Position numbers and translations under genes: made by a program. The notes under the pieces were generated by a model. The model saw only the letters and a list, made by a program, of their open reading frames with translations. It was not told where the DNA came from and did not search any database. 64,000 bases of DNA, from assembly GCA_963920525.1 (NCBI GenBank), contig OY986437.1, forward strand, positions 96,163,175 through 96,227,174. The letters are read 5' to 3'. Of this stretch, positions 6,075 through 49,200 are shown piece by piece (the first letter of the stretch is position 1; each line of letters opens with the position of its first letter). The DNA comes from Dichetophora obliterata (lineage: Eukaryota; Arthropoda; Insecta; Diptera; Sciomyzidae).

Positions 6075-7544
6075 TTAAGACAAATCGTCCCGATTTGTTA
6101 CATTCTTGGACAAATTTTCAATTTTGTTTTGTATTTCTTCTAATGCATATTCTTCTTCTTTCCGTAATTTATTTTCTTTATATTTCTTTAAAAATTTGAT
6201 TAATTTTAAAATGATATAACTTATTATGGCGAAAGTTATAAAACTAGTTAAAGTCCAAATACCTTGTTTCACTTTTACATTGTCTGTTTTAATATTTAAT
6301 AAATCAATATTATCAAAATTTAAATTAGTATCTTCTTCTATATATTTTATAATTTCATAGTCATTCAAATTATTATTTTTAATATAATTATATATTACAT
6401 CATTTTCATTTTCATATGTTTCGTTGTCAATAGTGATTTGATCGTTAAACGTTACTAGATATATACCATTTGTTTTAAATTCATTAACCATATGGTTTCC
6501 ACTTATTAAGATTGCTCCGTCTTTAATGATTTCCAAATTTTTATTATGGCCTTTAATTTTATTACACTTTCCTTTCTTATTATTTAAAATTTGTGACAGG
6601 CAATTTTCTTCTTTATTGGTTTTACAAAATATACTTAATAATTCTTTTTTACAATTCTTTACATTTTCAAAAATTTTATTACATTTTACAATTTCTTTCG
6701 GTATGATCAATTTACTTTCATTTTGGCTAATTGCCCGTGTTTCAAAATATTTGCATGATTTGGTAATTATTGGATATTTTATATATATAACAATTAAGTC
6801 TTTGTTTTGAATAATTTTAAAAATTGAGGTATCTAGCAAATCTGTTATTGTTATTTTTTCATGTTCATGCCTTATTATTGTTTTTATTTCATTTAAATTT
6901 AAAATCAAAGGACTAAGAATTCCTGCTTTCGCTAAAGTAATTGTATGTATAACATTTTGTAATTCATTTAAAATCAATTGGTTTCTTCTTTTAATCATTA
7001 TTTTTATATTTGAAGAATCTGGTATTTTTATTATCATGTCGTGCAATTGTTCAATCGCCTTAAATATTTGTGAGTTAGTTACAAATTGTTTATTATTGTT
7101 CTGTACGAGTTCGTCCAGTTTTGTATTTATATTAACTAAGTCGTTATAATCTGGTGTCCCGGCTATCCATTTCCATAATGTTCCTAGTTCATTTATTCCT
7201 CGTCTTAATCTGTTAGCTTTTTTATTCTTTGGTTTTTGTAATTTTCCTAACAAAATTTCGATTAGTCCTGTTTCAATGTCAGTCTCATTATATTCTGATG
7301 CGGTTATTCTTGATTTATTTATTTTAATTTCTTTAAATATTTTATGTTTTTTATTCGTTTCTATTATTTCATTATAATATGTTAAATTAGTGACATGATA
7401 TATTTCACCGTAATTTTCATAAATAAGGGCCTTATCATTTTCGATAAGTATGTAGTTATCTCTTGTATAATCTATTATGTCAATTATTTCAGTTTTTACT
7501 AATGTAGTGAATATTAATATTATTATTACGTATTGCATCTGCAA
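6075..7544 (-). CDS. env: Errantivirus Env, F-protein-like fusion glycoprotein (copy B)
   Basis: A 489-residue complete ORF. The N-terminal 18 or so residues form a hydrophobic signal peptide. A furin-type RLRR motif ends at residue 115 and is followed by GINELGTLWKWIAG-type sequence, the place of the fusion peptide in errantiviral and baculoviral F proteins. One hydrophobic anchor lies at about 430-452, followed by a charged cytoplasmic tail of about 40 residues. The order and length fit the errantivirus Env family, which makes LTR elements potentially infectious. The start is the first ATG after the small ORF; the protein is presumably expressed from a spliced mRNA. The ORF is uninterrupted. 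Activity is not shown by sequence alone. Confidence 0.93.
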   Translation of the reverse strand: MQMQYVIIILIFTTLVKTEIIDIIDYTRDNYILIENDKALIYENYGEIYHVTNLTYYNEIIETNKKHKIFKEIKINKSRITASEYNETDIETGLIEILLGKLQKPKNKKANRLRRGINELGTLWKWIAGTPDYNDLVNINTKLDELVQNNNKQFVTNSQIFKAIEQLHDMIIKIPDSSNIKIMIKRRNQLILNELQNVIHTITLAKAGILSPLILNLNEIKTIIRHEHEKITITDLLDTSIFKIIQNKDLIVIYIKYPIITKSCKYFETRAISQNESKLIIPKEIVKCNKIFENVKNCKKELLSIFCKTNKEENCLSQILNNKKGKCNKIKGHNKNLEIIKDGAILISGNHMVNEFKTNGIYLVTFNDQITIDNETYENENDVIYNYIKNNNLNDYEIIKYIEEDTNLNFDNIDLLNIKTDNVKVKQGIWTLTSFITFAIISYIILKLIKFLKKYKENKLRKEEEYALEEIQNKIENLSKNVTNRDDLS

Positions 7545-12912: not shown

Positions 12913-13370
12913 ATTAATTTTTTGACGTTAGGTTTTGTTAAAAAAAATCTTTATTTATTTCTTAACAAACTTAACAATCAAAAATATTCTTAATATCTAA
13001 ACTGCAACTGAACTGAAAACAAACTGAAGTGAAACTCCACTCAAACTGAACTGAAACTAAAAACTGAAGAAGTATTCTAAGTTCATACTTCTTTTATACT
13101 TTAAATTCCTTATTTACATCTCTACATAAAACTTATGTATTACATATCATTTATTAATGTATTTGGACACTTAGATACTTTTAAGAATTTATCATATAAA
13201 GAAATTTGATCGTAAACATCATCCGATCAATATTCCCATGAATCAGTTATAAACAATTAAAGTTATAAACAAAGAAATATGATTAGAAGCATACTTTAAT
13301 ATGAATCATATTTATAATAATTTTTGTTTATATTATCTATTAAAGTTACCAGCAAGTGCTAACTTTAACT
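12913..13370 (-). repeat. 5' LTR of errantivirus copy B
   Basis: A 458-bp LTR identical by eye to 5606-6063. The outer end is fixed by the loss of similarity to 6064 onward (PPT) and by the start of the R1-like sequence. A TATA box lies at 13091-13098. Confidence 0.93.
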
Positions 13371-14660
13371 TGCACACATTCGTCCCATCTAGACCTAACA
13401 CATTCACACAGCAAAGCCTTCCTTTCACCCTCACCCACATGCGCTACATTCGAGTGATTGACCCAATCAAACAATAAGGAGGGCACATCTTTCTTAATGC
13501 CATAAGCAACACATAGTTGTATTACTACCAGATCAAGAGGGGGGACCCCCAGCAACACTTGTAAGGCATCTGTAGATACCGTATGACACACAGGCATACA
13601 TCCAATCAGAATGGCTCTCTGACAAGAGAGTATCTTTCGATATCCCACAGCAGACCTGACCACGTGACCCCATACAGGTGCACCAAAAGTTGCGCAAGCA
13701 ACAAATAGGCCCCCATACATAAGCCGTACAGCCCGCCTACTGAGTCCCCATTCAGATCTGAGTAATCGCCGTACACACCCTACAACCGACAGTGATCGGC
13801 TCTTCAGTGCCACCAAATGGGCAACAAAATTCATTCTTTCACACAAGGTTATCCCCAAATACTTGACTTCAGTCGCATATTTAAGGCTAACCCCATTCAC
13901 TCTAACACATGGATGCCGACTCAACTTGCCCTTCAGCAACATCATCACGGTCTTGTCCATGGCCACACTCACACCAACACCCATCCCCCATTCACACACA
14001 ATGCTCATGGCCTCACTTGCTTTAGCCTCCAGCTCAGCACGAGACCGGCCTTCAACCAACACAAGAAGATCATCAGCATACGCACAACATTCAACAGTTG
14101 ACGAAGCTGTTTTAACAAAGGATCTATCATAAGGTTCCAAATAAATGGACCACAGATAGACCCCTGCGGACAGCCCCGAACAACATCTACATACACACAT
14201 TGACTAACACCAATAACACATGCACGTCTGCCAGAAAAATAACTCCTCCAGAGCTTAATTTCCTGGCAGCCTATCACACTTAACCTATCTAAAACCCTCT
14301 TCCAGCATAAATAGTCGAAGGCCCCTTTGAAGTCAATAAATAACCCCAAGACATACTTGGAGGTACTTACTGCAACAACATTCTTGACAAACATCCACGC
14401 ATCAATCACGCTTTTGCCCTTACGAAAACCAAATTGATTCTCGCAAAGGCTCGCATTCACACAACCAAGAAGCCGTTCCACCATAACCCTTTCCAGCACT
14501 TTTCCAAGCACCGGTAGTAGGCTAATACCCCGATAGGAGCGGGGATTGCTTCTCAGCCTATCAGGCGACTTTAACAGCACAACAACTCTTGCTTCCTTCG
14601 ACACAGTGGGGAAGTAGGCCTCAGACATACACTTTGTATACACAGCCTCAAGATACTCAG
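13371..14660 (-). pseudogene. R1-like non-LTR retrotransposon fragment (unit 1)
   Basis: Minus-strand reverse transcriptase relic. The upstream part (14005-14643) has the RT motifs NPRSYRGISLLPVLGK, FGFRKGKS and DFKGAFD, and the turn GCPQGS. The downstream part (13371-14200) is in another frame and carries the catalytic AYADDLLVLV box, followed by the thumb and a conserved C-terminal segment typical of R1-clade ORF2. A frameshift lies near 14110-14120, in an A-rich stretch. The 3' end is cut at 13371 by the errantivirus LTR and the 5' end is lost at about 14660. There is no endonuclease domain. Clade assignment rests on motif resemblance. Confidence 0.82.
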
Positions 14661-14692
14661 GAATAATAAAACAACTTCAATGGGAAAAAATA

Positions 14693-14884
14693 GTTCAAAA
14701 ATAGAATAGTGCGGAGATACCCACAAATAGATGTGTGGCGCAATCAGATATGTGATTTGCGTGGCCAACGAAAATATAGCGACATATTTAAAGAAATGTT
14801 GTGCGACCTTGTTAAATCTTACGGGAAAAAATTAACAGTGGAAGAAGTTAGAACAAGAGTTAATAATCTGAAGAAGAGATATAG
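14693..14884 (+). pseudogene. MADF/Myb-SANT-like relic, exon 1 (unit 1)
   Basis: The plus strand encodes a MADF-like DNA-binding segment: Arg-Tyr-Pro near the start, Trp and Arg-Lys-Tyr in the middle, and a final LTVEEVRTRVNNLKKRYR-type helix. It ends at a consensus splice donor ATAG|GTAAGT (14885). An in-frame stop lies just upstream of 14693, so the true start is lost. Such proteins are commonly the second gene of PIF/Harbinger transposons, and Harbinger transposase pieces lie downstream on the opposite strand. It may alternatively be a relic of a host MADF gene. Confidence 0.6.
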
Positions 14885-15168
14885 GTAAGTAGATTGAACA
14901 ATTGTAATTTGATAGGCCCATGTCAAATTGCAAAATTTTTCGCGATTTTCTCCAGTAAGATAATCGAAGCTACCAAAAAAAGTATGCTAAACTTTTGACG
15001 TGATTGCTTTATTTCTCTTGCAATTTCTCGTGCAACAGAGGATAGAACAATTGCGGCCGCGTAACTTCCAACACTATGCAATCAGCTTTGATCGCCTGCA
15101 ACTCGCCCGCAATCTATCATGCAATTTGGCCTGGACCTCATAATAAAAAATGCTGGTATAACATATAA

Positions 15169-17003
15169 ACTTACTTTACTTACTTAGTTGGCGCTACAAC
15201 CGTATGTCGGTCTTGGCCTCATCTAAGAATTTGCGCCAGCCATTTCTGTCTTTCGCTTGCTGGCGCCAGTTCGAAATTCCAAGCTTCGTCAGGTTGTCCT
15301 CTACTTGGTCTTTCCAACGAAGATGCGGTCGTCCTCTTCTGCGTTGACCGCCGCTGGGTACCGAATCAAATGTTTTCTTCACTGGAGCATCGTCTTTCAT
15401 GCGCTGAACATGACCAAGCCAGCGAAGCCGCTCGATTTTAATGCGCTTGACTATGTCGATGTCAGCGTACAGCTCATACAGTTCATCATTCCACCGTATT
15501 CGGTACTCGCCATTGACGCAGATTGGTCCGTAGATCTTACGAAGAATCTTTCTCTCGAATGCTCCTAAAGTCTTTTCATCTAAACTGCTCAGCGTCCAGG
15601 TTTGTGATGCGTAAAGTAGGACGGGCATGATGAGCGATTTATAGAGCGTGATTTTCGTTCGTCGAGAGAGGGCTCTGCTTCTCAATTGCCTACTGAGCCC
15701 AAAGTAACACCTGTTGGCAAGAGTTATTCTTCGTTTGATCTCAATGCTGATGTCGTTGGTTGAATTAATGCTGGATCCCAGATAAACGAAGTTCTTCACA
15801 ACCTCGAAGGAGGTATTGTCAACGGTAACGTGGGTTCCAAGACGCTGGGACTGTTTGTTTGTTGACACTAAGTATTTCGTCTTATCTGCATTCACTGCCA
15901 GACCCATTCGACTTGACTCTCTTTCTAATCTGGAAAATGCTGCACTGACTTCGCGCGTATTATGGCCAATGATATCTATGTCATCAGCATACGCAAGCAG
16001 CATAACACTCTTGTAGAATATTGTGCCACTACGTCTCAGATCAGCAGCTCGTATGATCTTTTCCATCATTAGGTTGAAAAAGTCACACGATAAGGAATCA
16101 CCTTGTCTGAAACTTTCCCGATTTTAACTGCGCTGCTGGTGTTGCTCAGTGTCATCCTGAAAAGTCTTATTAGTTTTGCAGAAATACCAAATTCAGACAT
16201 GGTGGAGTACAGGTGCTTCCTTATTGGGCTGTCGAAGGCGGCTTTGTAGTCGACAAAAAGATGGTGGGTGTCGTCGACTTGTTTTTCTTGAGTCTTCTCC
16301 AAGATTTGTCGTAGCGTCAAAATCTGGTCGATGGTGGACTTTCCAGGTCTGAAACCACACTGATAAGGTCCGATCAGTTCGTTTACAATGGGCTTCAATC
16401 TTTCACATAAAACGCTCGACAGGACCTTATATGCGATATTAAGAAGGCTTATCCCACGGTAATTGGCACAGATAGTGGGATCGCCTTTCTTGTGGATTGG
16501 GCAGAGCACACTGAGATTCCAATCGTTCGGAATGCATTCTTTCTACCATATTCTGCATAGAAGCTCGTGAATGCATTTAAGTAGAGCATCGCCTCTGTTC
16601 TTAAACAGCTCAGCAGGTAAGCCATCAGCTCCCGCGGCTTTGTTATTTTTAAGCCGAGCTATAGCTGTCAGAACTTCATCATAGTCGGGCAGCGGAACCT
16701 CAACGCTTAGAAGCTTAGAGAAGTGTTCCCTCCATAACGTCAGTGTACTCTGGACATCTGTCACTAGATTCCCGTTTTCATCCTTGCAGGAAGAGGCCCC
16801 GGTTTTAAAACCATCGGCAAGGAGTCTTATTTTTTCAAAAAAAAATTCGGGCCTCATTCCTGTCACCATACATCTCAATCTTCTCCTGCTCGCGCTTTTC
16901 TGCCTCTCTTTTTTCCGCCTGAAAATATGTCTCTCTTCCCTCCTCTTTTCTTTGTATCGCTCCTTAGCAGCACATATAAAAGCAGTTATAAATTTGTTAT
17001 ACA
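15169..17003 (-). pseudogene. RTE-like non-LTR retrotransposon, 5'-truncated (unit 1)
   Basis: Minus strand, running from an N-terminal linker (16543-17010) with KEKRREERHIFRRKKERQ and NKAAGADGLP. The RT follows (16069-16509) with NYRGISLLN, YQCGFRPGKST and DYKAAFD, and then (15194-16069) the catalytic AYADDIDIIG and the C-terminal RRRGRPHLRWKDQVEDN segment typical of RTE/BovB-type ORFs. It is broken by an in-frame stop at 16543-16545 and a frameshift near 16069. The 3' end has GTAAGTAAAGTAAG-type short repeats near 15170, as usual for RTE tails. It sits in the intron of the MADF-like relic. The apurinic endonuclease is missing. Confidence 0.85.
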
Positions 17004-26283: not shown

Positions 26284-26741
26284 ATTAATTTTTTGACGTT
26301 AGGTTTTGTTAAAAAAAATCTTTATTTATTTCTTAACAAACTTAACAATCAAAAATATTCTTAATATCTAAACTGCAACTGAACTGAAAACAAACTGAAG
26401 TGAAACTCCACTCAAACTGAACTGAAACTAAAAACTGAAGAAGTATTCTAAGTTCATACTTCTTTTATACTTTAAATTCCTTATTTACATCTCTACATAA
26501 AACTTATGTATTACATATCATTTATTAATGTATTTGGACACTTAGATACTTTTAAGAATTTATCATATAAAGAAATTTGATCGTAAACATCATCCGATCA
26601 ATATTCCCATGAATCAGTTATAAACAATTAAAGTTATAAACAAAGAAATATGATTAGAAGCATACTTTAATATGAATCATATTTATAATAATTTTTGTTT
26701 ATATTATCTATTAAAGTTACCAGCAAGTGCTAACTTTAACT
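26284..26741 (-). repeat. 5' LTR of errantivirus copy C
   Basis: A 458-bp LTR, same limits and motifs as the others; TATA box at 26462-26469. It borders the duplicated R1-like fragment at the identical base (TGCACA). Confidence 0.92.
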
Positions 26742-28031
26742 TGCACACATTCGTCCCATCTAGACCTAACACATTCACACAGCAAAGCCTTCCTTTCACC
26801 CTCACCCACATGCGCTACATTCGAGTGATTGACCCAATCAAACAATAAGGAGGGCACATCTTTCTTAATCCCATAAGCAACACATAGTTGTATTACTACC
26901 AGATCAAGAGGGGGGACCCCCAGCAACACTTGTAAGGCATCTGTAGATACCGTATGACACACAGGCATACATCCAATCAGAATGGCTCTCTGACAAGAGA
27001 GTATCTTTCGATATCCCACAGCAGACCTGACCACGTGACCCCATACAGGTGCACCAAAAGTTGCGCAAGCAACAAATAGGCCCCCATACATAAGCCGTAC
27101 AGCCCGCCTACTGAGTCCCCATTCAGATCTGAGTAATCGCCGTACACACCCTACAACCGACAGTGATCGGCTCTTCAGTGCCACCAAATGGGCAACAAAA
27201 TTCATTCTTTCACACAAGGTTATCCCCAAATACTTGACTTCAGTCGCATATTTAAGGCTAACCCCATTCACTCTAACACATGGATGCCGACTCAACTTGC
27301 CCTTCAGCAACATCATCACGGTCTTGTCCATGGCCACACTCACACCAACACCCATCCCCCATTCACACACAATGCTCATGGCCTCACTTGCTTTAGCCTC
27401 CAGCTCAGCACGAGACCGGCCTTCAACCAACACAAGAAGATCATCAGCATACGCACAACATTCAACAGTTGACGAAGCTGTTTTAACAAAGGATCTATCA
27501 TAAGGTTCCAAATAAATGGACCACAGATAGACCCCTGCGGACAGCCCCGAACAACATCTACATACACACATTGACTAACACCAATAACACATGCACGTCT
27601 GCCAGAAAAATAACTCCTCCAGAGCTTAATTTCCTGGCAGCCTATCACACTTAACCTATCTAAAACCCTCTTCCAGCATAAATAGTCGAAGGCCCCTTTG
27701 AAGTCAATAAATAACCCCAAGACATACTTGGAGGTACTTACTGCAACAACATTCTTGACAAACATCCACGCATCAATCACGCTTTTGCCCTTACGAAAAC
27801 CAAATTGATTCTCGCAAAGGCTCGCATTCACACAACCAAGAAGCCGTTCCACCATAACCCTTTCCAGCACTTTTCCAAGCACCGGTAGTAGGCTAATACC
27901 CCGATAGGAGCGGGGATTGCTTCTCAGCCTATCAGGCGACTTTAACAGCACAACAACTCTTGCTTCCTTCGACACAGTGGGGAAGTAGGCCTCAGACATA
28001 CACTTTGTATACACAGCCTCAAGATACTCAG
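26742..28031 (-). pseudogene. R1-like non-LTR fragment (unit 2)
   Basis: A duplicate of 13371-14660 with the same frameshift between the RT N-terminal part and the AYADD box. One silent substitution was noticed near 26871. Confidence 0.82.
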
Positions 28032-28063
28032 GAATAATAAAACAACTTCAATGGGAAAAAATA

Positions 28064-28255
28064 GTTCAAAAATAGAATAGTGCGGAGATACCCACAAATA
28101 GATGTGTGGCGCAATCAGATATGTGATTTGCGTGGCCAACGAAAATATAGCGACATATTTAAAGAAATGTTGTGCGACCTTGTTAAATCTTACGGGAAAA
28201 AATTAACAGTGGAAGAAGTTAGAACAAGAGTTAATAATCTGAAGAAGAGATATAG
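28064..28255 (+). pseudogene. MADF-like relic, exon 1 (unit 2)
   Basis: A duplicate of 14693-14884, including the GTAAGT donor at 28256. Confidence 0.6.
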
Positions 28256-28539
28256 GTAAGTAGATTGAACAATTGTAATTTGATAGGCCCATGTCAAATT
28301 GCAAAATTTTTCGCGATTTTCTCCAGTAAGATAATCGAAGCTACCAAAAAAAGTATGCTAAACTTTTGACGTGATTGCTTTATTTCTCTTGCAATTTCTC
28401 GTGCAACAGAGGATAGAACAATTGCGGCCGCGTAACTTCCAACACTATGCAATCAGCTTTGATCGCCTGCAACTCGCCCGCAATCTATCATGCAATTTGG
28501 CCTGGACCTCATAATAAAAAATGCTGGTATAACATATAA

Positions 28540-30363
28540 ACTTACTTTACTTACTTAGTTGGCGCTACAACCGTATGTCGGTCTTGGCCTCATCTAAGAA
28601 TTTGCGCCAGCCATTTCTGTCTTTCGCTTGCTGGCGCCAGTTCGAAATTCCAAGCTTCGTCAGGTTGTCCTCTACTTGGTCTTTCCAACGAAGATGCGGT
28701 CGTCCTCTTCTGCGTTGACCGCCGCTGGGTACCGAATCAAATGTTTTCTTCACTGGAGCATCGTCTTTCATGCGCTGAACATGACCAAGCCAGCGAAGCC
28801 GCTCGATTTTAATGCGCTTGACTATGTCGATGTCAGCGTACAGCTCATACAGTTCATCATTCCACCGTATTCGGTACTCGCCATTGACGCAGATTGGTCC
28901 GTAGATCTTACGAAGAATCTTTCTCTCGAATGCTCCTAAAGTCTTTTCATCTAAACTGCTCAGCGTCCAGGTTTGTGATGCGTAAAGTAGGACGGGCATG
29001 ATGAGCGATTTATAGAGCGTGATTTTCGTTCGTCGAGAGAGGGCTCTGCTTCTCAATTGCCTACTGAGCCCAAAGTAACACCTGTTGGCAAGAGTTATTC
29101 TTCGTTTGATCTCAATGCTGATGTCGTTGGTTGAATTAATGCTGGATCCCAGATAAACGAAGTTCTTCACAACCTCGAAGGAGGTATTGTCAACGGTAAC
29201 GTGGGTTCCAAGACGCTGGGACTGTTTGTTTGTTGACACTAAGTATTTCGTCTTATCTGCATTCACTGCCAGACCCATTCGACTTGACTCTCTTTCTAAT
29301 CTGGAAAATGCTGCACTGACTTCGCGCGTATTATGGCCAATGATATCTATGTCATCAGCATACGCAAGCAGCATAACACTCTTGTAGAATATTGTGCCAC
29401 TACGTCTCAGATCAGCAGCTCGTATGATCTTTTCCATCATTAGGTTGAAAAAGTCACACGATAAGGAATCACCTTGTCTGAAACTTTCCCGATTTTAACT
29501 GCGCTGCTGGTGTTGCTCAGTGTCATCCTGAAAAGTCTTATTAGTTTTGCAGAAATACCAAATTCAGACATGGTGGAGTACAGGTGCTTCCTTATTGGGC
29601 TGTCGAAGGCGGCTTTGTAGTCGACAAAAAGATGGTGGGTGTCGTCGACTTGTTTTTCTTGAGTCTTCTCCAAGATTTGTCGTAGCGTCAAAATCTGGTC
29701 GATGGTGGACTTTCCAGGTCTGAAACCACACTGATAAGGTCCGATCAGTTCGTTTACAATGGGCTTCAATCTTTCACATAAAACGCTCGACAGGACCTTA
29801 TATGCGATATTAAGAAGGCTTATCCCACGGTAATTGGCACAGATAGTGGGATCGCCTTTCTTGTGGATTGGGCAGAGCACACTGAGATTCCAATCGTTCG
29901 GAATGCATTCTTTCTACCATATTCTGCATAGAAGCTCGTGAATGCATTTAAGTAGAGCATCGCCTCTGTTCTTAAACAGCTCAGCAGGTAAGCCATCAGC
30001 TCCCGCGGCTTTGTTATTTTTAAGCCGAGCTATAGCTGTCAGAACTTCATCATAGTCGGGCAGCGGAACCTCAACGCTTAGAAGCTTAGAGAAGTGTTCC
30101 CTCCATAACGTCAGTGTACTCTGGACATCTGTCACTAGATTCCTTGCAGGAAGAGGCCCCGGTTTTAAAACCATCGGCAAGGAGTCTTATTTTTTCAAAA
30201 AAAAATTCGGGCCTCATTCCTGTCACCATACATCTCAATCTTCTCCTGCTCGCGCTTTTCTGCCTCTCTTTTTTCCGCCTGAAAATATGTCTCTCTTCCC
30301 TCCTCTTTTCTTTGTATCGCTCCTTAGCAGCACATATAAAAGCAGTTATAAATTTGTTATACA
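28540..30363 (-). pseudogene. RTE-like non-LTR retrotransposon (unit 2)
   Basis: A duplicate of 15169-17003 with the same stop and frameshift, plus a private 11-base deletion near 30144 that breaks the N-terminal linker frame. The deletion is a clear marker for telling the two units apart in reads. Confidence 0.85.
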
Positions 30364-38643: not shown

Positions 38644-39935
38644 AAGGGTCCGCCAAATAACTTTTTTTTTTGAAAAATCGATTAAAAAATTCTACTGGAT
38701 ATTTTCTCAAATTTCTTTTTTTATTTGAAAGTACAATACTTCCATTTAATAATGAAAAATAATTTCATTCAAATGGCTGCCTCGGCTGGCCTTGCAGTAG
38801 CCTACACGATCGGTCCAATTTTTAAGCACATTATCGATTGTGTACAGCTGTATTTCACCAATGGCTTCACGAATAATGTCCTTTAAAGCGTCAATTGTCT
38901 CTGGCTTGTCGGCGTAACACTTATCTTTAAGGGCATCCCACAAATAATAGTCCAACGGTGTCAAATCGCAGCTCTGAGGTGGCCAAACTACATCAGCTCT
39001 GCGGCTGATAATGCGATTTTCAAAAACAGGGCGCAAAACATCGAGTGTAGCTTCGGCTGTGTGGCACGTAGCGACGTCCTGTTGAAACCAAATGTTGCCA
39101 ATATCCTCCTCTTCAATTTTTGAGAACAAAAATTCGTTCAACATGGTCCGATAACGATTGCCATTGACTGTAACGGCCACTCCTTGCTCATTTTCGAAGA
39201 AAAATGGCCCAATTATGCCTCTGGACCAAAATCCGCACCAAACAGTGACTCGTTTTGGGTGCAGCGGCTTTTCAATGTATGCGTGCGGGTTTTCTGTGCC
39301 CCAAATGCGACAATTTTGCTTGTTTACATACCCGCCAAGATCAAAATGAGCTTCATCTGATAAGATGATTTTTTTGGCAAAATCGGCATCTTCTGTAAGT
39401 CGATCGCAGGCCCACTTAGCGAAGCGAAAACGCATTGGATGGTCAGTTGGCTTCAACTTCTGAACCAATTGGACTTTGTATGGCGTTATACCAAGGTCTT
39501 TATGCAAAATTCATCTCAATGATGTCTCCGAAATGTTCAATTGTTGAGAACGACGGTGAATTGATGTTGATGACGCTTCACGCACACTTTCTGCCACAGC
39601 AGCAATATTCTCGGGTGTATGCACTGCTTTTGGCTTTTCACGCTTTGGTTTATCGATGAGGATGCCAGTTTCTTTCACTTTTTTCACAAGATAACGAACA
39701 TACGGAGCTTCTCTTCTTCCAAAATCCGTACGCAATTTTCGCACACGTTCTGCAACATTACCATGATTTTCAAAGTAATGTCGCAATATTTCCCAGCATT
39801 GTTCAAGCGTATACACAACCATATTTGTTCATCGGAAGGATAAAACTAATTATCTGTCAAATCAGACATGAGCTAAGTGTTACCATTTACGAAATAAGCA
39901 CTAGTTGAAAAAAAAAGTTAGATGGCGGACCCTTG
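38644..39935 (-). mobile_element. DD41D mariner element
   Basis: About 1292 bp with TIRs AAGGGTCCGCCA... at both ends (left 38644, right ending 39935), T-rich just inside. The left flank has TA, but the right flank is GT, so one side of the target duplication seems altered. It contains one transposase gene on the minus strand. Confidence 0.82.
38746..39822 (-). pseudogene. Mariner transposase, DD41D (rosa-type), one nonsense codon
   Basis: The ATG at 39822 begins a helix-turn-helix N-terminus (TLEQCWEILRHYF...). TGA at 39511-39513 interrupts the frame after 103 codons, and the same frame then continues without further stops to 38746. The catalytic part shows LSDEAHF (first Asp), WFQQDVATCHTA (second Asp) and CDLTPLDYYLW. 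Exactly 41 residues separate the second and third catalytic Asp, the spacing of the DD41D group first described as rosa in Ceratitis. Total length of about 358 codons matches an intact family member. A single base change explains the loss, so this copy is young or recently silenced. Confidence 0.88.
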
Positions 39936-41114: not shown

Positions 41115-41449
41115 TTAAGTTTTTTATTCGATTGTATTAAACAGTTGTAGTCCATGTATATCATTTATTGGCCTAACCTTTGTCCAAAGCCGATGATTAA
41201 TCCTAGAATGATTGCTCAAATACAATAGATGTATATACAAAAAAGCTCGCCATCTGCTCTTAAGCATCCATACTTTTAATTACTCATTTGTTATTTCAAG
41301 AGTGCTTATACTTTTATTAAAATTTTTTTCTTTTTTTCTTGATATAAAAATTTTATTTAAATGTTAATAATTTTTTGAAGCAATTGTCAAGCAAAATTAT
41401 TTCGATATGTGTCTCACTACTTTCATATGTGTGTCACTAATTTCATATA
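41115..41449. other. Non-coding flank between Harbinger relic and Tc1 element
   Basis: AT-rich, with no convincing ORF or TIR. The last 60 bases contain two copies of TGTGTCACTA(C/A)TTTCATAT, a motif that reappears just beyond the right end of the Tc1 element (48547), so Tc1 inserted into a short repeated sequence. Confidence 0.5.
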
Positions 41450-41896
41450 CAGTGGCTCACAGCTTATTTCATGCAGTGCATACTTTAAACTTTAAGGCTT
41501 TATAAAATCAAAACTAACTGGAATACAAAAGATAATATAGTGACATTTTAGAGAGCAAAAAGTCTAGTTAAATAAAAGTTTTTCATTAATTATGAATACA
41601 CATATTTAGTTGTCATAAAAATAAGAGAGCAGAAAATACTGCTTAATTTCATCTCGGAGCTTATTTTTTGCAGTCACTTCTCTCTGTTACGGTACTCTAA
41701 TGCTGCGTTGTCTAACGGTACTTTCGTTAGCTATGCCTTCGTTCTATTTCTATAATTGCTTTGTGTTAGCTTTTTAGTCTGATTTTTTTGCTTCAAGTGT
41801 CTGCTTCTATGATTATTAAAAATAGGAGCGCGTTCAACGCTTTAACAACGAGAATTGGTTATATACTATTTTTAAAACAGCAGCTCGCAGCGAAAA

Positions 41897-43223: not shown

Positions 43224-43828
43224 TGTCTAAGGCCCCAGAGTACTGGAATTCAGTTATTTTTACAGATAAATCGAAGATCAATTTATTCGGTTCAGATGGT
43301 ATTTGCTATATGTGGCGAAAACCGAATACCGAGGTCAACAAAAAAAACTTAAAACAAACCGTGAAGCATGGCGGTGGAAGCGTCATGGTTTGGGCCTGAA
43401 TGTCAGCTGCTGGTACTGGGAAGTTGCCGTTTATTGAAATAATAATGGACAAATTTAAGTACCCACAGATCCTGAAGAACAATTTGTTGCAGAGTGCAAA
43501 GGTTCTGGGTATAATATTGCATTTCCGATTTTACCTGGATGACGATCAAAAGCACAAAGCGAGTATTGTGCAAACCAGGCTAATATAAAACTGCCCACAA
43601 TTGATGACGCCGCCAGCACAGTCATTAGAGCTTAATGTTATTGCAAATGTGTGGTCTTTATTGGAAAATAACATCCGGAAACATCTAATTTCAAACAAAA
43701 ACCACCTGAAAGAGATATTGAAAACGAAGTGGGCGAATATTTCGCCAACTATCACTCAAAAACTGGTCGCATCAATGCCAAACCACCCTAGATCTGTTGT
43801 GGACAACAAGGGCCATCATACCAAATAA
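43224..43828 (+). pseudogene. Tc1-like transposase relic, catalytic part
   Basis: It begins SKAPEYWNSVIFTDKSKINL (first catalytic Asp present) and continues through KHGGGSVMVWA, which is followed by a stop. The second motif is degraded to YLDDDQKHKAS, and the final region AQSLELNVIANVW has Ala where the catalytic Glu of IENVW is expected. The stop is at 43826-43828. It has stops, frame changes and a lost active-site residue. Confidence 0.8.
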
Positions 43829-44066
43829 TAAAAATAACAAATATCATTAATTAAGTAATACGAAAAATTTGTAAATAACAAGTGACTGCATAAAATAAGC
43901 TGTGATATGAAATTAAGCAGTATTTTCTGGTTTCTTCATTTAAGCCAACTCAATATTTATTTTTATAATAAATTAAGTTAATTTATTTAACTAAATATAT
44001 TGTTCTTTTAAATTATACTATATTATTTTTTCTATTCCTGTTATTTTCGTTGTTATAAAGCCCTTA

Positions 44067-44454
44067 AGTAGATAGGCTATGCCGGTTCTGGCTCACTTCT
44101 GGTAAAAATAAGCGCCATCTAGCGGTGGTTGACGAAAAACCATTGCATACTTCTGGGGGAACGCTTGTTTGACAGCGTTGACGAAAAAAAAAACATTGCA
44201 TGCTTCTGGGGGAATGCTTGTTTGACAGCGTTGACGAAAAAAAAAACATTGCATGCTACTGGGGGAATGCTTGTTTGACAGCGTTGATGATCAACGATTT
44301 AAATTTTTCGTGGTGGCTGCGGAGGCGTAGGCAGCACCATCTAGCGTTTAGGTGAGGCGGAGACAGCGCCACCAGAAGTAATGCGTGTATGAGGTTTGTG
44401 TCTTGGCTTTCCACAACATGAAAAAACAACCGCCAGATCTCTGCATGAATTAAC
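44067..44454 (+). repeat. Left TIR of the Polinton-like element
   Basis: 388 bp, nearly identical in inverse to 48110-48496. It contains three tandem copies of a roughly 53-bp unit with CATTGCAT(A/G)CTTCTGGGGGAA and TTGTTTGACAGCGTTGACG (about 44129-44288), followed by a GC-rich stretch (GGAGGCGTAGGCAGC). Confidence 0.92.
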
Positions 44455-44645
44455 TCATTTTAATAAATTTAATATGAGTTGGCTGACTAATGTAAAAACA
44501 AAGTATGAAAGCAGCAAAATAAATTAAGCTAACGATTGAAAGCGATATCATAACCATGACCATACGCAACTATGCTGATATAAATAAAACAAAACGAGTT
44601 GATTTATATATGAATCATTATTGTTCTTTTATTGATTTGCTATAA

Positions 44646-45866
44646 TTAAATAATTCTTATGATTTCCTTTGTTAGAGGAGTGTATTCAATTAAACGATCA
44701 TGGATTACCAAACAGTAAGCTGACGTTTTGTCTGGAATCGGTTTGTTTGCTTCGGTGTAAAACTCAATTCGTACATCAATAGGTCCTGTTTTAACTGCTT
44801 CATTTTGGTGTGTTACATCAACAACAATAAGCGGCGCTGTTGCCTTATATTCAACAACATTGAGCAATGGTTGAGGTTCCCGCATATAATAATAACTTTG
44901 TTGAAATTTTGCATACATATCATATAGAATAGCATACTGTCCCATTTCAAAGCGCGTATTTAAATCATCATAGGGATATGAATGAGAGTTTAAATGAACT
45001 TTTAAATTAGTTATATTACAATGGTCGAATGTATTTCCTTCCTCTTTGCTCCTCTCATTTTGTAGGCCAATAATAAGAAATCTAGGTCTTTCATTTTGCT
45101 GACTCAGTTTTACATTCCATAAAACCTTTGTACTTTTACTTTCTGAAATCCTAGGATTTACATGACAGTCCCAACTTCGAAAAGCCATTAAAATAGGGTT
45201 TTCATTATTAATTATCTTGTACATTTCCAATTTCGAAAAGTCCGATAGTTGTATGTGAGGCATTTTCCATGTTATATCCAGTATTGTCAATTTTAATTGA
45301 TCTGCGGCATTAGTAGGATAATATGAGCTATCATTAGACGAAGAACGTTGAAGGATAAGCTCATGCTTCGAATTTAATATTATTTTAGTGTAATCTTCGG
45401 CAAATCCCATCAACATTTTTAGTGGTATACAGCAACTAAAGTGATTTTTTTCCAAAGTTAGACTTTCATCAGGGCACCAACCAGCGTTTTTTAATGCATC
45501 GCTTTCAGCTTTATTCAATGATACAAAATTTTTCATGGTGGATGAAGTTCCAAGATTGCGCGTACGATCAACTTCAAAACCATTAATTTCATATCGAATT
45601 TCATCAAACAAATATGACACAAAGTTATTTTTAAATTTCACACCTGTCGTTGGCACATCTTTTCCACCTTCACGTTTTACTATGAAGCCATGAATGTAAA
45701 TCATACTCTCACTTGGTAGGACAAAGAGATCCTGATTTTGAATTGGTATACGAATCTCATCGTTATTGTTGAATGATTTTAAATATGGAGAGTAGCTATG
45801 GTAATCCCTCTTTATAATACTCTCATCATATATTGGTTTTTGAAGGACATTTAATATTTCGTTCAT
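44646..45866 (-). CDS. Capsid-like protein of the Polinton-like element, 406 residues
   Basis: A complete ORF from ATG 45866 to the stop at 44646. It is soluble with no signal peptide or membrane span. It is rich in predicted beta strands with motifs NNNDEIRIPIQNQDLFVLPS near residues 34-53, LFDEIRYEINGFEVDR at about 90 and RLIEYTPL near the C-terminus. The layout, two beta-rich halves with no enzymatic motif, beside a second beta-rich gene in an element with long TIRs, suggests a jelly-roll capsid protein. I cannot assign a named family. The gene diverges from the plus-strand gene across the repeat region. The ORF is intact although the host Tc1 element is decayed, so the insertion is comparatively young. 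Other readings include a structural protein of an unrelated integrated DNA virus. Confidence 0.7.
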   Translation of the reverse strand: MNEILNVLQKPIYDESIIKRDYHSYSPYLKSFNNNDEIRIPIQNQDLFVLPSESMIYIHGFIVKREGGKDVPTTGVKFKNNFVSYLFDEIRYEINGFEVDRTRNLGTSSTMKNFVSLNKAESDALKNAGWCPDESLTLEKNHFSCCIPLKMLMGFAEDYTKIILNSKHELILQRSSSNDSSYYPTNAADQLKLTILDITWKMPHIQLSDFSKLEMYKIINNENPILMAFRSWDCHVNPRISESKSTKVLWNVKLSQQNERPRFLIIGLQNERSKEEGNTFDHCNITNLKVHLNSHSYPYDDLNTRFEMGQYAILYDMYAKFQQSYYYMREPQPLLNVVEYKATAPLIVVDVTHQNEAVKTGPIDVRIEFYTEANKPIPDKTSAYCLVIHDRLIEYTPLTKEIIRII

Positions 45867-46013
45867 GATTAAAGCTGAAATCCCAAGAACTTACAATTTT
45901 TTATGTTTAATGTTGACAACAGATTCTTTTTATATGTCTTCGATCGAGAGTTGATGTAGGGCTAAACGGAAATACTATGACAACTAGTTATTAATAATTG
46001 TTAACGACTTGCC

Positions 46014-46573
46014 ACATCTAACTGTAAAACTGTTTACTACAGTATCAGATCAGTATCAGATTATCATCAGAACAGCATAAGATCAGTATGAGATCAGTAT
46101 CAGATCAGTATCAGATCAGTATCAGATCAGTATCTGATCAGTATCTGAGCAGTATCAGATCAGTATCAGATCAGTATCAGATAAGTATCAGCACCCGATC
46201 AGTATCAGCATCAATATCAGATAAGTATCAATATCACTATCAGTGCCAGTTAGTATCTTCATGTTTTGAGCAAAATTTAATTTGAATATGAATACATCTA
46301 ACTGTAAAACTGTTTACTACAGTATCAGATCAGTATCAGATTATCATCAGAACAGCATAAGATCAGTATGAGATCAGTATCAGATCAGTATCAGATCAGT
46401 ATCAGATCAGTATCTGATCAGTATCTGATCAGTATCAGATCAGTATCAGATCAGTATCAGATAAGTATCAGCACCCGATCAGTATCAGCATCAATATCAG
46501 ATAAGTATCAATATCACTATCAGTGTCAGTTAGTATCTTCATGTTTTGAGCAAAATTTAATTTGAATATGAAT
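46014..46573. repeat. Central minisatellite: two 280-bp copies rich in GATCAGTATCA
   Basis: A 280-bp unit (46014-46293, 46294-46573) is repeated in tandem with very few differences. Each contains a run of GATCAGTATCA-type 10-11 bp repeats, some arranged as TGATCA palindromes. It lies exactly between the two divergent genes and may hold their promoters or a replication origin. The open frames through it are by-products of the repeat. Confidence 0.9.
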
Positions 46574-46662
46574 AAAGAAAATTGTAAACTATTTTAGTAA
46601 TTATTTAATACTAAATCGGGGAAAAATATGTATAGATGCTCAGTTCATTACGACTACTCATA

Positions 46663-47412
46663 ATGTCTTTAACAATCTCTTTAAGCGGAACCACATCAAC
46701 TCTTATTGGAAAATATTTTCCACCAATTGAATTGGCAACAAAATATGTTTGCGGACTTGTAGACTTTGTAACATTTAATTCTATACCCAATGTAGATGTC
46801 CACAACAATTTATTTCATATCGGGCCGCATACTATTACAATACCAGTTGGTTCATATGAATTTGAGGATATTGGGTTTTTCTTGAAATCAGTCGTAAGAG
46901 ACCTTGATGATTCAATTTTCCTGGAAATTAAATCAAACAACAACACTCTTAAAATTGAAATTGTATCCTCCGTGGACATAGATTTTTCAAAACCAAACAG
47001 TATAGGACAGGTGCTGGGATTCAGTATAAGAAAGTTGATAGTAAATCCTATAGATCCGTTACAAGAGATAGAAAAAACGGAATATATACATATAGGTCAG
47101 TCAGATAAAACTAGAAAAAAGTTTGAATCTGATTTACCTTTAAATATTACAAATATAAACACAATACGAATTGAATGCAACTTGACAACCGGATCATATA
47201 TTAACAACACATCAGTTCATACTATTCACGAATTTCCTCTCGATGTCTCACCAGGATATAAAATAATTGAAAAACCTCGAAATGTCATTTACTTACCCGT
47301 CAACTGTCAACAAATAAACAGCATAATGATAAAAGTCTTAAATCAAGACGGTGACCTTATTAATTTTCGAGGGGAAAAAATTTCTATAAGACTTCACTTT
47401 AAGCCAGAGTAA
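46663..47412 (+). CDS. Second capsid-like protein of the Polinton-like element, about 249-258 residues
   Basis: The open frame has an ATG at 46636 and a second at 46663. I prefer the second because it gives MSLTISLSG with no odd leader. Beta-rich, no membrane span. Notable motifs are IGKYFPPIEL near the start, CGLVDFVTFNSIPNVD, IPVGSYEFEDIG and a C-terminal EKPRNVIYLPVNC followed by NFRGEKISIRLHF. No enzymatic signature. The size and strand-rich pattern would suit a single-jelly-roll minor capsid (penton-like) protein, but this is inference. It is uninterrupted, divergent from the 406-residue gene and followed by broken copies of that gene's 3' end. Confidence 0.65.
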   Translation: MSLTISLSGTTSTLIGKYFPPIELATKYVCGLVDFVTFNSIPNVDVHNNLFHIGPHTITIPVGSYEFEDIGFFLKSVVRDLDDSIFLEIKSNNNTLKIEIVSSVDIDFSKPNSIGQVLGFSIRKLIVNPIDPLQEIEKTEYIHIGQSDKTRKKFESDLPLNITNINTIRIECNLTTGSYINNTSVHTIHEFPLDVSPGYKIIEKPRNVIYLPVNCQQINSIMIKVLNQDGDLINFRGEKISIRLHFKPE

Positions 47413-47448
47413 AAATAATGATCATTTACGCTATAAATTCTTCATCAT

Positions 47449-47607
47449 CCGCTCAATGTTGATGAATATAAGGCAACAGCACCGCTTATTGTTGTTGATG
47501 TAACACATCAAAATGACGCAGTTAAAACAGGACCTATTGATGTACGAATTGAGTTTTACACCGAAGCAAACAAACCGATTCTAGACAAAACGTCAGCTTA
47601 CTGTACA
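47449..47607 (+). pseudogene. Partial copy of capsid-like gene C-terminus (fragment 1)
   Basis: The plus strand encodes NVDEYKATAPLIVVDVTHQN and continues to DKTSAYC, matching the C-terminal 55 or so residues of the 406-residue protein with a small deletion. The reading then jumps into a 36-40 base stretch identical, in inverse, to 44455-44493 beside the left TIR. It is therefore an inverted, internally deleted copy of the left side of the element. Confidence 0.82.
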
Positions 47608-47641
47608 TTAGTCAGCCAACTCATATTAAATTTATTAAAAT

Positions 47642-47959
47642 GATTTAAACACCCGCTTCGAAACAGGACAGTATGCTGTATTATATGATATGTATACAAA
47701 ATTTCAACAAAGTTATTATATGAGGGAAACTCAACCATTGCTAGATGTTGTTGGATATAAGACTTTTGCACCGCTTATTGTTGTTGATGTTACACACCAA
47801 AATGAAGCAGTTAAAGTGGGACCTATTGATATACGGATTGAATTTGATACTGAAGCAGGTAAACCAATTCCAGATAAAACGTCAGCATACTGTTTGGTAA
47901 TTCATGATCGTTTAATCGAATACTCACCTCTTACCAGCGAAATTCGAAGAATAATTTAA
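47642..47959 (+). pseudogene. Partial copy of capsid-like gene C-terminus (fragment 2)
   Basis: An open frame starting DLNTRFETGQYAVLYDMYTK and running to the stop at 47957-47959. It corresponds to the last 105 or so residues of the 406-residue protein, with about a dozen substitutions, so it is older than fragment 1. It has no start codon in a sensible position and lacks the first three quarters of the gene. Confidence 0.82.
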
Positions 47960-48109
47960 ATAAACAATTACTTATTTTTCACAATTTTAAAATAATCAAA
48001 ATTGTTATGTAATAAAAATGATAAAATCAACACGTTTTTTATTTTTATTTACATATATCAACATAGTTGAGAATGGTCAGGTTCATGGTTTGTATTATCA
48101 AAGTTCAAG
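47960..48109. other. Spacer before right TIR of the Polinton-like element
   Basis: 150 bp of AT-rich DNA after fragment 2. I see no gene or repeat in it. Confidence 0.5.
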
Positions 48110-48496
48110 GTTAATTCATGCAGAGATCTGGCGGTTGTTTTTTCAAGTTGTGGAAAGCCAAGACACAAACCTCATACACGCATTACTTCTGGTGGCGCTG
48201 TCTCCGCCTCACCTAAACGCTAGATGGTGCTGCCTCCGCCTCCGCAGCCACCACGAAAAATTTAAATCGTTGATCATCAACGCTGTCAAACAAGCATTCC
48301 CCCAGTAGCATGCAATGTTTTTTTTTTCGTCAACGCTGTCAAACAAGGATTCCCCCAGAAGCATGCAATGTTTTTTTTTCGTCAACGCTGTCAAACAAGT
48401 ATTCCCCCAGAAGTATGCAATGGTTTTTCGTCAACCACCGCTAGATGGCGCTTATTTTTACCGGAAGTGAGCCAGAACCGGCATAGCCTATCTACT
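48110..48496 (-). repeat. Right TIR of the Polinton-like element
   Basis: 387 bp, inverse complement of 44067-44454 with only scattered differences, including the three 53-bp internal repeats. Followed by the CCCTTA duplication and then the end of the Tc1 right TIR. Confidence 0.92.
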
Positions 48497-48544
48497 CCCT
48501 TAAATTGAAAGTATGCACTGCATTAAATAAGCTGTGAGCCACTG

Positions 48545-49200
48545 TATGTGTCACTACTTTCATATGTGTCCTTAGTATAAAATTAGCTGAAACGTTTTTG
48601 TTTGTTCGATTTCCTTTCGGTAGCTTTCTCACTGTAGCTAATTTAATCAATTGAACTTTATATTGAAAATATTAACTAAGCCGATATAAATCTGGTTCTA
48701 TCAGAAAACACATTTGTCATACCCATCACCAACATCTTATAGCAGCTATTGAAAGAATCTGCAGGTGGATTTATATATTTGGCGCTACTTTTCGCTAAAT
48801 CAAAGAACTTTCTTCATATTTCTTCTCAGTCAGCTTGACAAAAAAAAACTTCATATGCAAAATGAACGCTAGAGGGCGCCATAATATTTTTCAATTTCAG
48901 CACATTTCCGGTTAGTTGCACGTGCTGCCAAAACTTTGACTTTGAGCTTCAATAGCAAGCAAACAAAAATTCAGGAATATTTTATTTTTTCCGAAGTATT
49001 CAGTATATTTATGCATCTCAATTAAAATAAAAAAAAAACTGTTGCAAAAATTCATCAGCCCAGAAGGGAACAATTCTGCTTGTTTCGGATAAGTAAAAAA
49101 TATATATATGGCACCTATGAAAATATTAAAAACTTTTTCGATTTGTAGCGTCAATTTGTGATTCTGCTGATTGGACTGAATGGCGTTGAATTGCAAACAT
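48545..49200. other. Non-coding sequence right of the Tc1 element
   Basis: It begins with TA and TGTGTCACTACTTTCATATG, the same motif as on the left of Tc1. The remainder is AT-rich, unassigned and without supportable genes. Confidence 0.5.

Follow-up and report, generated by a model that had tools for sequence, protein, structure and literature searches.

The 64,000-nucleotide stretch of Dichetophora obliterata DNA analysed here (Diptera; Sciomyzidae; GCA_963920525.1, OY986437.1:96,163,175-96,227,174, forward strand; hereafter the window) carries a 4,430-bp mobile element at positions 44067-48496, hereafter the miniature. We consider it probable that the miniature is a non-autonomous Polinton (Maverick) whose only predicted products are a major capsid protein (MCP) and a penton, and which likely depends, for its copying and insertion, on enzymes from larger Polintons that have the same ends. 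It does not stand alone, and the genome holds dozens of miniature copies that encode predicted shell proteins but no polymerase or integrase gene.

Long terminal inverted repeats (TIRs) beginning with AG and a 6-bp target site duplication (TSD) are the marks of Polintons, and both are present in the miniature. The element starts with AGTAGATAGG and ends with CCTATCTACT, CCCTTA abuts it on both sides, and its left and right TIRs are inverted copies sharing 98.2% identity, so that the AG-starting repeats of about 388 bp and the CCCTTA duplication reported in the initial annotation of this DNA are borne out. The insertion target was one TIR of a Tc1-like element, the opposite TIR of which could serve as an empty site: the flanks of the miniature, joined minus one CCCTTA, gave an uninterrupted alignment to positions 41679-41444 with 80.5% identity over 236 bp. 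Since the flanks align unbroken to the empty site, the limits of the element and its target duplication are exact, and the annotation had rightly drawn these limits from the split Tc1 repeat. All three further copies in which both ends were available displayed perfect 6-bp TSDs of differing sequence (TGCATG, TATTTG and AAAGGG), giving a perfect duplication in 4/4 copies checked when the window copy is included.

Each TIR contains a 53-bp tandem repeat, and the number of its units ranges from 2 to 5 across 30 loci (L009-L038, window copy included). Within a given element the TIR lengths at both ends match. Over 12 pairs (10 miniature and 2 large elements) the mean difference was 3.3 bp, as compared to 36 bp for shuffled pairs, and none of 10,000 shuffles gave a value as low as the observed one. 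This agreement in length indicates that both ends behave as a single unit; the near-equal lengths fit a mechanism, which we infer, whereby the ends are copied from each other during replication.

The two divergent, uninterrupted open reading frames (ORFs) described in the annotation are indeed intact and lie head-to-head. The 406-residue protein is, according to its structural model, a double-jelly-roll capsid protein, and it matches PF21738 with an E-value of 9e-126 in a Pfam scan. The 258-residue protein is predicted to be a penton, less certainly than the MCP (model pLDDT 73.4), and its aligned homologues begin at the second methionine, at position 46663. The proposal that both proteins are capsid-like was upheld by the models and by the Pfam match, and a capsid fold devoid of a jelly roll was not seen, the predicted MCP fold being a jelly roll. 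The central tandem repeat noted earlier was recovered as two 280-bp units, the second of which is absent from the single copy of a second miniature subfamily (B) that was read. The ORF list displayed no polymerase-sized ORF in 44067-48496, and no integrase was seen in the element, both long ORFs being capsid-like (ORF list and Pfam). Likewise, neither a packaging ATPase nor a protease was identified in the element from the ORF list and from the Pfam scan, which covered 3 of the 13 ORFs of at least 60 amino acids in 43500-49200.

Copies were sought across the 1.31-Gb genome to which the window belongs by scoring the best candidate places: 102 of 1525 for the MCP (102/102 matched), 147 of 895 for the penton (147/147 matched), 128 of 7627 for the integrase and 91 of 520 for the polymerase (89 matches). 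The search for further copies of the same TIR, a check suggested by the annotation, was successful, with 42 matches genome-wide (40 of 113 candidates scored). The 102 scored MCPs comprise 87 sequences, the window's included, that are 92-100% identical to the window MCP (mini-type) and 15 others that are 87-88% identical to it (full-type). A penton match was found head-to-head at 0.4-0.8 kb from 65 of the 87 mini-type MCPs, head-to-head within 6 kb from four more and co-directional in one case, whereas 10 of the 15 full-type MCPs have a penton 158-172 bp away on the same strand, and the remaining five have no penton match. The two types also differ in their surroundings: an integrase match lies within 20 kb of 3/87 mini-type MCPs (the window copy not among these) versus 15/15 full-type MCPs, and a polymerase match lies within 25 kb of 1/87 versus 14/15. 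When the top 30 MCP loci, window copy included, were read as DNA, every one displayed first the TIR, then the MCP and then the penton, with additional partial ends at a few loci; all 30 MCPs were free of stop codons and 27 of the 30 pentons were open across the part read. The ten miniatures with both TIRs scored (window copy included) measure 4.2-4.6 kb end to end, and in 10/10 of them these TIRs enclose the capsid gene; the refuting outcome named in the annotation, the genes sitting without these TIRs and outside any mobile context, was not seen.

Full-length relatives with the same ends, which the annotation had envisaged, were found in the same genome and carry polymerase and integrase. The TIR is common to two elements of 17-18 kb located at C2:121211611-121229804 and C3:45536026-45553426. 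The C2 element encodes an MCP, a penton, an integrase (rve, E 3e-13) and a polymerase, together with a weak cysteine protease match (Peptidase_C48, E 0.008, below the Pfam cut-off); no ATPase was found in the parts of the large element read. Polymerase and integrase matches also lie between the ends of the C3 element, the MCP and penton having been read in the C2 element only. At five more TIR ends an integrase of the same family lies 8-18 kb inward, and a sixth end, C2:115649226, is that of a miniature, the integrase match lying beyond it. The miniature thus has its ends in common with complete elements and occurs as dispersed, TSD-flanked copies without enzymes, as a non-autonomous Polinton does. 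Because of these shared ends, and of the exchange of ends described below, we consider that the miniature is likely unable to copy itself and borrows the enzymes of its larger relatives. A helper polymerase and terminal protein would replicate the miniature via its TIRs, a helper integrase would insert it, and the capsid proteins of the miniature would add to shells packing either the miniature or its helper.

The right arm of the miniature (47451-48101) carries inverted remnants of capsid-gene ends that were overlooked in the initial annotation. In the 18.2-kb element (L069, the C2 element above) the capsid end consists of the TIR, the MCP and the penton, with both genes on the same strand. 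The left arm of the miniature contains the TIR, the MCP gene and about 110 bp of upstream DNA, and its right arm corresponds to an inverted end with the penton gene and about 110 bp of its upstream DNA, the MCP-end remnants and the TIR. This layout is the one expected if a Polinton capsid end is doubled as an inverted repeat and each arm then loses one of the genes, and it suggests that the miniature probably arose by such a duplication with complementary gene loss. In this scenario, a complete Polinton would have had its capsid end duplicated in inverted orientation, like a snap-back product of protein-primed replication, after which one arm would have lost a capsid gene and the other a penton gene. 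The right end would later have been swapped with that of a complete element: 462 bp of the right arm match the corresponding end of the 18.2-kb element at 99.4% identity, and yet the MCPs of the two elements share only about 83% identity, which points to a later exchange of ends with a large element. Three miniatures (L020, L025 and L033) have nested or repeated ends, for example a second TIR or a partial MCP outside the first, an arrangement that suggests recombination between element ends.

We next consider the forces acting on the capsid genes. Comparison of the window MCP with one MCP of subfamily B revealed 23 silent and 13 replacement changes, for a neutral expectation of about 7 and 29 (p = 1.2e-8). 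The corresponding dN/dS (ratio of replacement to silent substitution rates) is 0.133, and it is 0.12 between the window MCP and both large-element MCPs read; for the penton, a value of 0.20 was obtained against the one large-element penton read. Given this ratio of silent to replacement changes, selection likely preserved the MCP gene once the enzymes had been lost, gene exchange being the main alternative. In a tree of 51 proteins, 4 from this genome and 47 of the 120 listed homologues (whose named species are mostly calyptrate flies, but also include a hover fly, a soldier fly and a moth), the MCPs of the two miniatures group together with 100/100 support; their sister is one large-element MCP (99/97), and the other large-element MCP falls elsewhere. 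Furthermore, a miniature-specific spacer is common to both subfamilies and, as judged by eye, is near-identical outside its repeat array.

Several observations weigh against an enzyme-borrowing miniature with selected capsid genes. The differences between the window copy and the single B copy that the selection test compares are patchy, with just 2 of the 36 falling within the initial 360 bp of the MCP gene (p = 0.0007). Together with the near-identical spacer, this patchiness indicates that exchange between copies occurs, and such exchange could import sequence from unseen large elements. No penton match lies within 6 kb of 17 of the 87 mini-type MCPs, in-frame stops interrupt 14 of these 87 and early stops interrupt 3 of the 30 pentons. 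The scoring of best candidates only biases the census towards intact copies, and the absence of a match in it is weaker than the absence of a gene. Finally, the penton frame of the large C2 element stops 12 residues before that of the window, and this copy may be impaired.

The broken MCPs and pentons would suit an ordinary deletion derivative, in which the capsid genes are passengers that stayed intact through a recent burst and have no function for the miniature. Such a burst is indicated by the 29 other top-locus MCPs, with 2-5 base differences each from the window copy. We find this explanation unlikely, since the two spacer-sharing subfamilies display an excess of silent changes that departs from neutrality (23:13 against about 7:29), and since each gene survives once, with its own upstream DNA. 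The signal of selection might alternatively be borrowed, if conversion from complete, selected Polintons renewed the capsid genes of otherwise inert miniatures. The near-identity of the right arm to the large element and the patchy divergence between subfamilies both agree with this explanation, which we nonetheless rate as quite unlikely, the tree placing the miniature MCPs in a clade of their own that contains neither large-element MCP. Moreover, no polymerase-adjacent MCP among the 102 scored is more than 88% identical to that of the window, bar a single broken copy, which lies 18.9 kb away from such a match. As for capsid copies serving the host, for instance as an interfering capsid against active Polintons, the silent excess in the capsid gene and the high copy number could be so explained, but the many TSD-bearing copies at different sites resemble self-spread and not a fixed host gene, which makes this last explanation extremely improbable.

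Polymerase genes of the same genome occur in a second, mirror-like arrangement. Among the 89 polymerase matches, 23 convergent PolB pairs were observed, 19 of them with a spacing of 7.2-8.0 kb, and among scored matches these pairs lack any integrase within 10 kb, as well as any MCP or penton within 20 kb. In two of them, L061/L062 (C1:289225362-289234377) and L063/L064, the arms are 100% identical over 4449 bp. The PolB pairs look like inverted duplications of the opposite Polinton end. The origin route suggested for the miniature, inverted duplication of one end with complementary gene loss, would then apparently have a parallel at the polymerase end elsewhere in the genome. The miniatures and the palindromes could be viewed as parts of a split Polinton, in which the shell genes form a selected element that outnumbers the complete ones and packages DNA replicated by others, and in which the palindromes are the complementary part. 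We put this forward only tentatively, as a doubtful possibility; if true, the shell element would be a classic satellite virus in reverse, one that supplies the shell and relies on the replication enzymes of others. A segmented (multipartite) Polinton, whose capsid-only miniatures and polymerase-only palindromes complement each other, appears very improbable. The presence in one genome of 23 convergent polymerase pairs without capsid or integrase matches nearby among those scored speaks for it, as do the segmented bidna-like viruses with similar terminal repeats known from Drosophila according to passages of PMC8363768. However, the palindrome PolB is of another lineage, its DNA agreeing at about 67%, across 1.1 kb, with that of the PolB in the large element that has the window's TIR, and elements that unite all these genes in one piece do occur.

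Coordinates of the miniature and of the features associated with it are given below.

Features of the miniature and of its insertion site (window positions)
Feature	Position	Strand
Opposite TIR of the Tc1-like element hit by the insertion, used as empty site	41444..41679	-
Left TSD copy, CCCTTA	44061..44066	.
Left TIR, 388 bp, begins AGTAGATAGG	44067..44454	+
53-bp tandem repeat within left TIR, 3 units	44135..44287	+
MCP gene, 406 aa, double jelly roll (model)	44646..45866	-
2 x 280-bp direct repeat of CAGTATCAGAT-like units, between both gene starts	46014..46573	.
Predicted penton (vertex capsid protein) gene, 258 aa	46636..47412	+
Inverted remnant of the element's own MCP type, 96.8% to reverse complement of 44712-44865	47451..47604	+
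Inverted copy of 44450-44494 (inner TIR edge), 97.8%	47604..47648	+
End segment, 99.4% over 462 bp to capsid end of L069	47640..48101	+
Capsid-gene C-terminal remnant inside end segment	47690..47959	
Right TIR, 387 bp	48110..48496	-
53-bp tandem repeat within right TIR	48277..48428	-
Right TSD copy, CCCTTA	48497..48502	.

The remainder of the window contains other mobile DNA. Positions 1-33300 contain what, as judged by eye, is an errantivirus-like Gypsy element in three direct tandem copies, with spacings of 7308 and 13371 bp and 100% identical blocks; its ORFs are gag-like (409 aa), pol-like (1071 aa) and env-like (489 aa, at 6075-7544). The 13371-bp spacing also duplicates fragments of a non-LTR (long terminal repeat) element, at 13346-16069 and 26717-29440. 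A 253-aa ORF at 38746-39507 resembles, by eye, a mariner-type transposase.

The gene set of Polintons includes a protein-primed PolB and an integrase, joined in many of them by MCP and penton genes, according to PMC6431247 and PMC4028283; in the latter study, elements below 10 kb are described as set aside as incomplete. An extracellular form of Polintons had yet to be detected in 2021, as stated in the abstract of PMC7805220. If the miniature is, as we favour, a non-autonomous Polinton served by larger relatives, then this enzyme-less DNA with capsid genes under apparent selection would be indirect evidence that shells matter to the spread of Polintons, and the miniatures would provide a high-copy system for testing whether they do. 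A literature search, with Repbase and subscription journals outside its scope, turned up no title that concerns a capsid-only Polinton.

Like Polintons/Mavericks, the miniature has long TIRs, a 6-bp TSD, a double-jelly-roll MCP (PY) and a penton (PX). Unlike them (15-20 kb), it measures 4.4 kb and lacks both polymerase and integrase, nor could an ATPase or a protease be identified in it; its MCP and penton genes are head-to-head, whereas those of Polintons are co-directional. Three assignments were rejected. The absence of polymerase and integrase rules out an autonomous Polinton; Adintoviridae combine PolB, integrase and capsid genes in one genome, a combination not found here; and a miniature inverted-repeat transposable element, short and non-coding between its TIRs, is ruled out by a length of 4.4 kb with two intact genes.

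Similarly short Mavericks, with consensuses of 600-4500 bp, are reported from another dipteran, the gall midge Mayetiola destructor, but in the sections of PMC8504770 available these contain a polymerase or an integrase domain only and are described as fragmented. The Polinton-like system in the portion of PMC8363768 consulted has capsid homologues in common with the miniature, but spans 13.3-14.6 kb and has polymerase, integrase, protease and FtsK ATPase. Whole meldvirus genomes, as outlined in an extract of PMC11071296, encode adenovirus-class virion proteins together with other replication genes and have no recognizable PolB or integrase. EMALE08, a truncated endogenous virophage, is shortened like the miniature and would rely on others in part of its cycle; from excerpts of PMC8547959, it represents the mirror case, as it has no recognizable shell genes and retains an integration gene. 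The closest analogue in way of working, although not a relative, is provided by TR-GAG retrotransposons, RNA-based LTR elements that are likewise non-autonomous and bounded by terminal repeats, with a gag domain only (PMC10552921, in part); the miniature would be the DNA counterpart of such gag-only retrotransposons.

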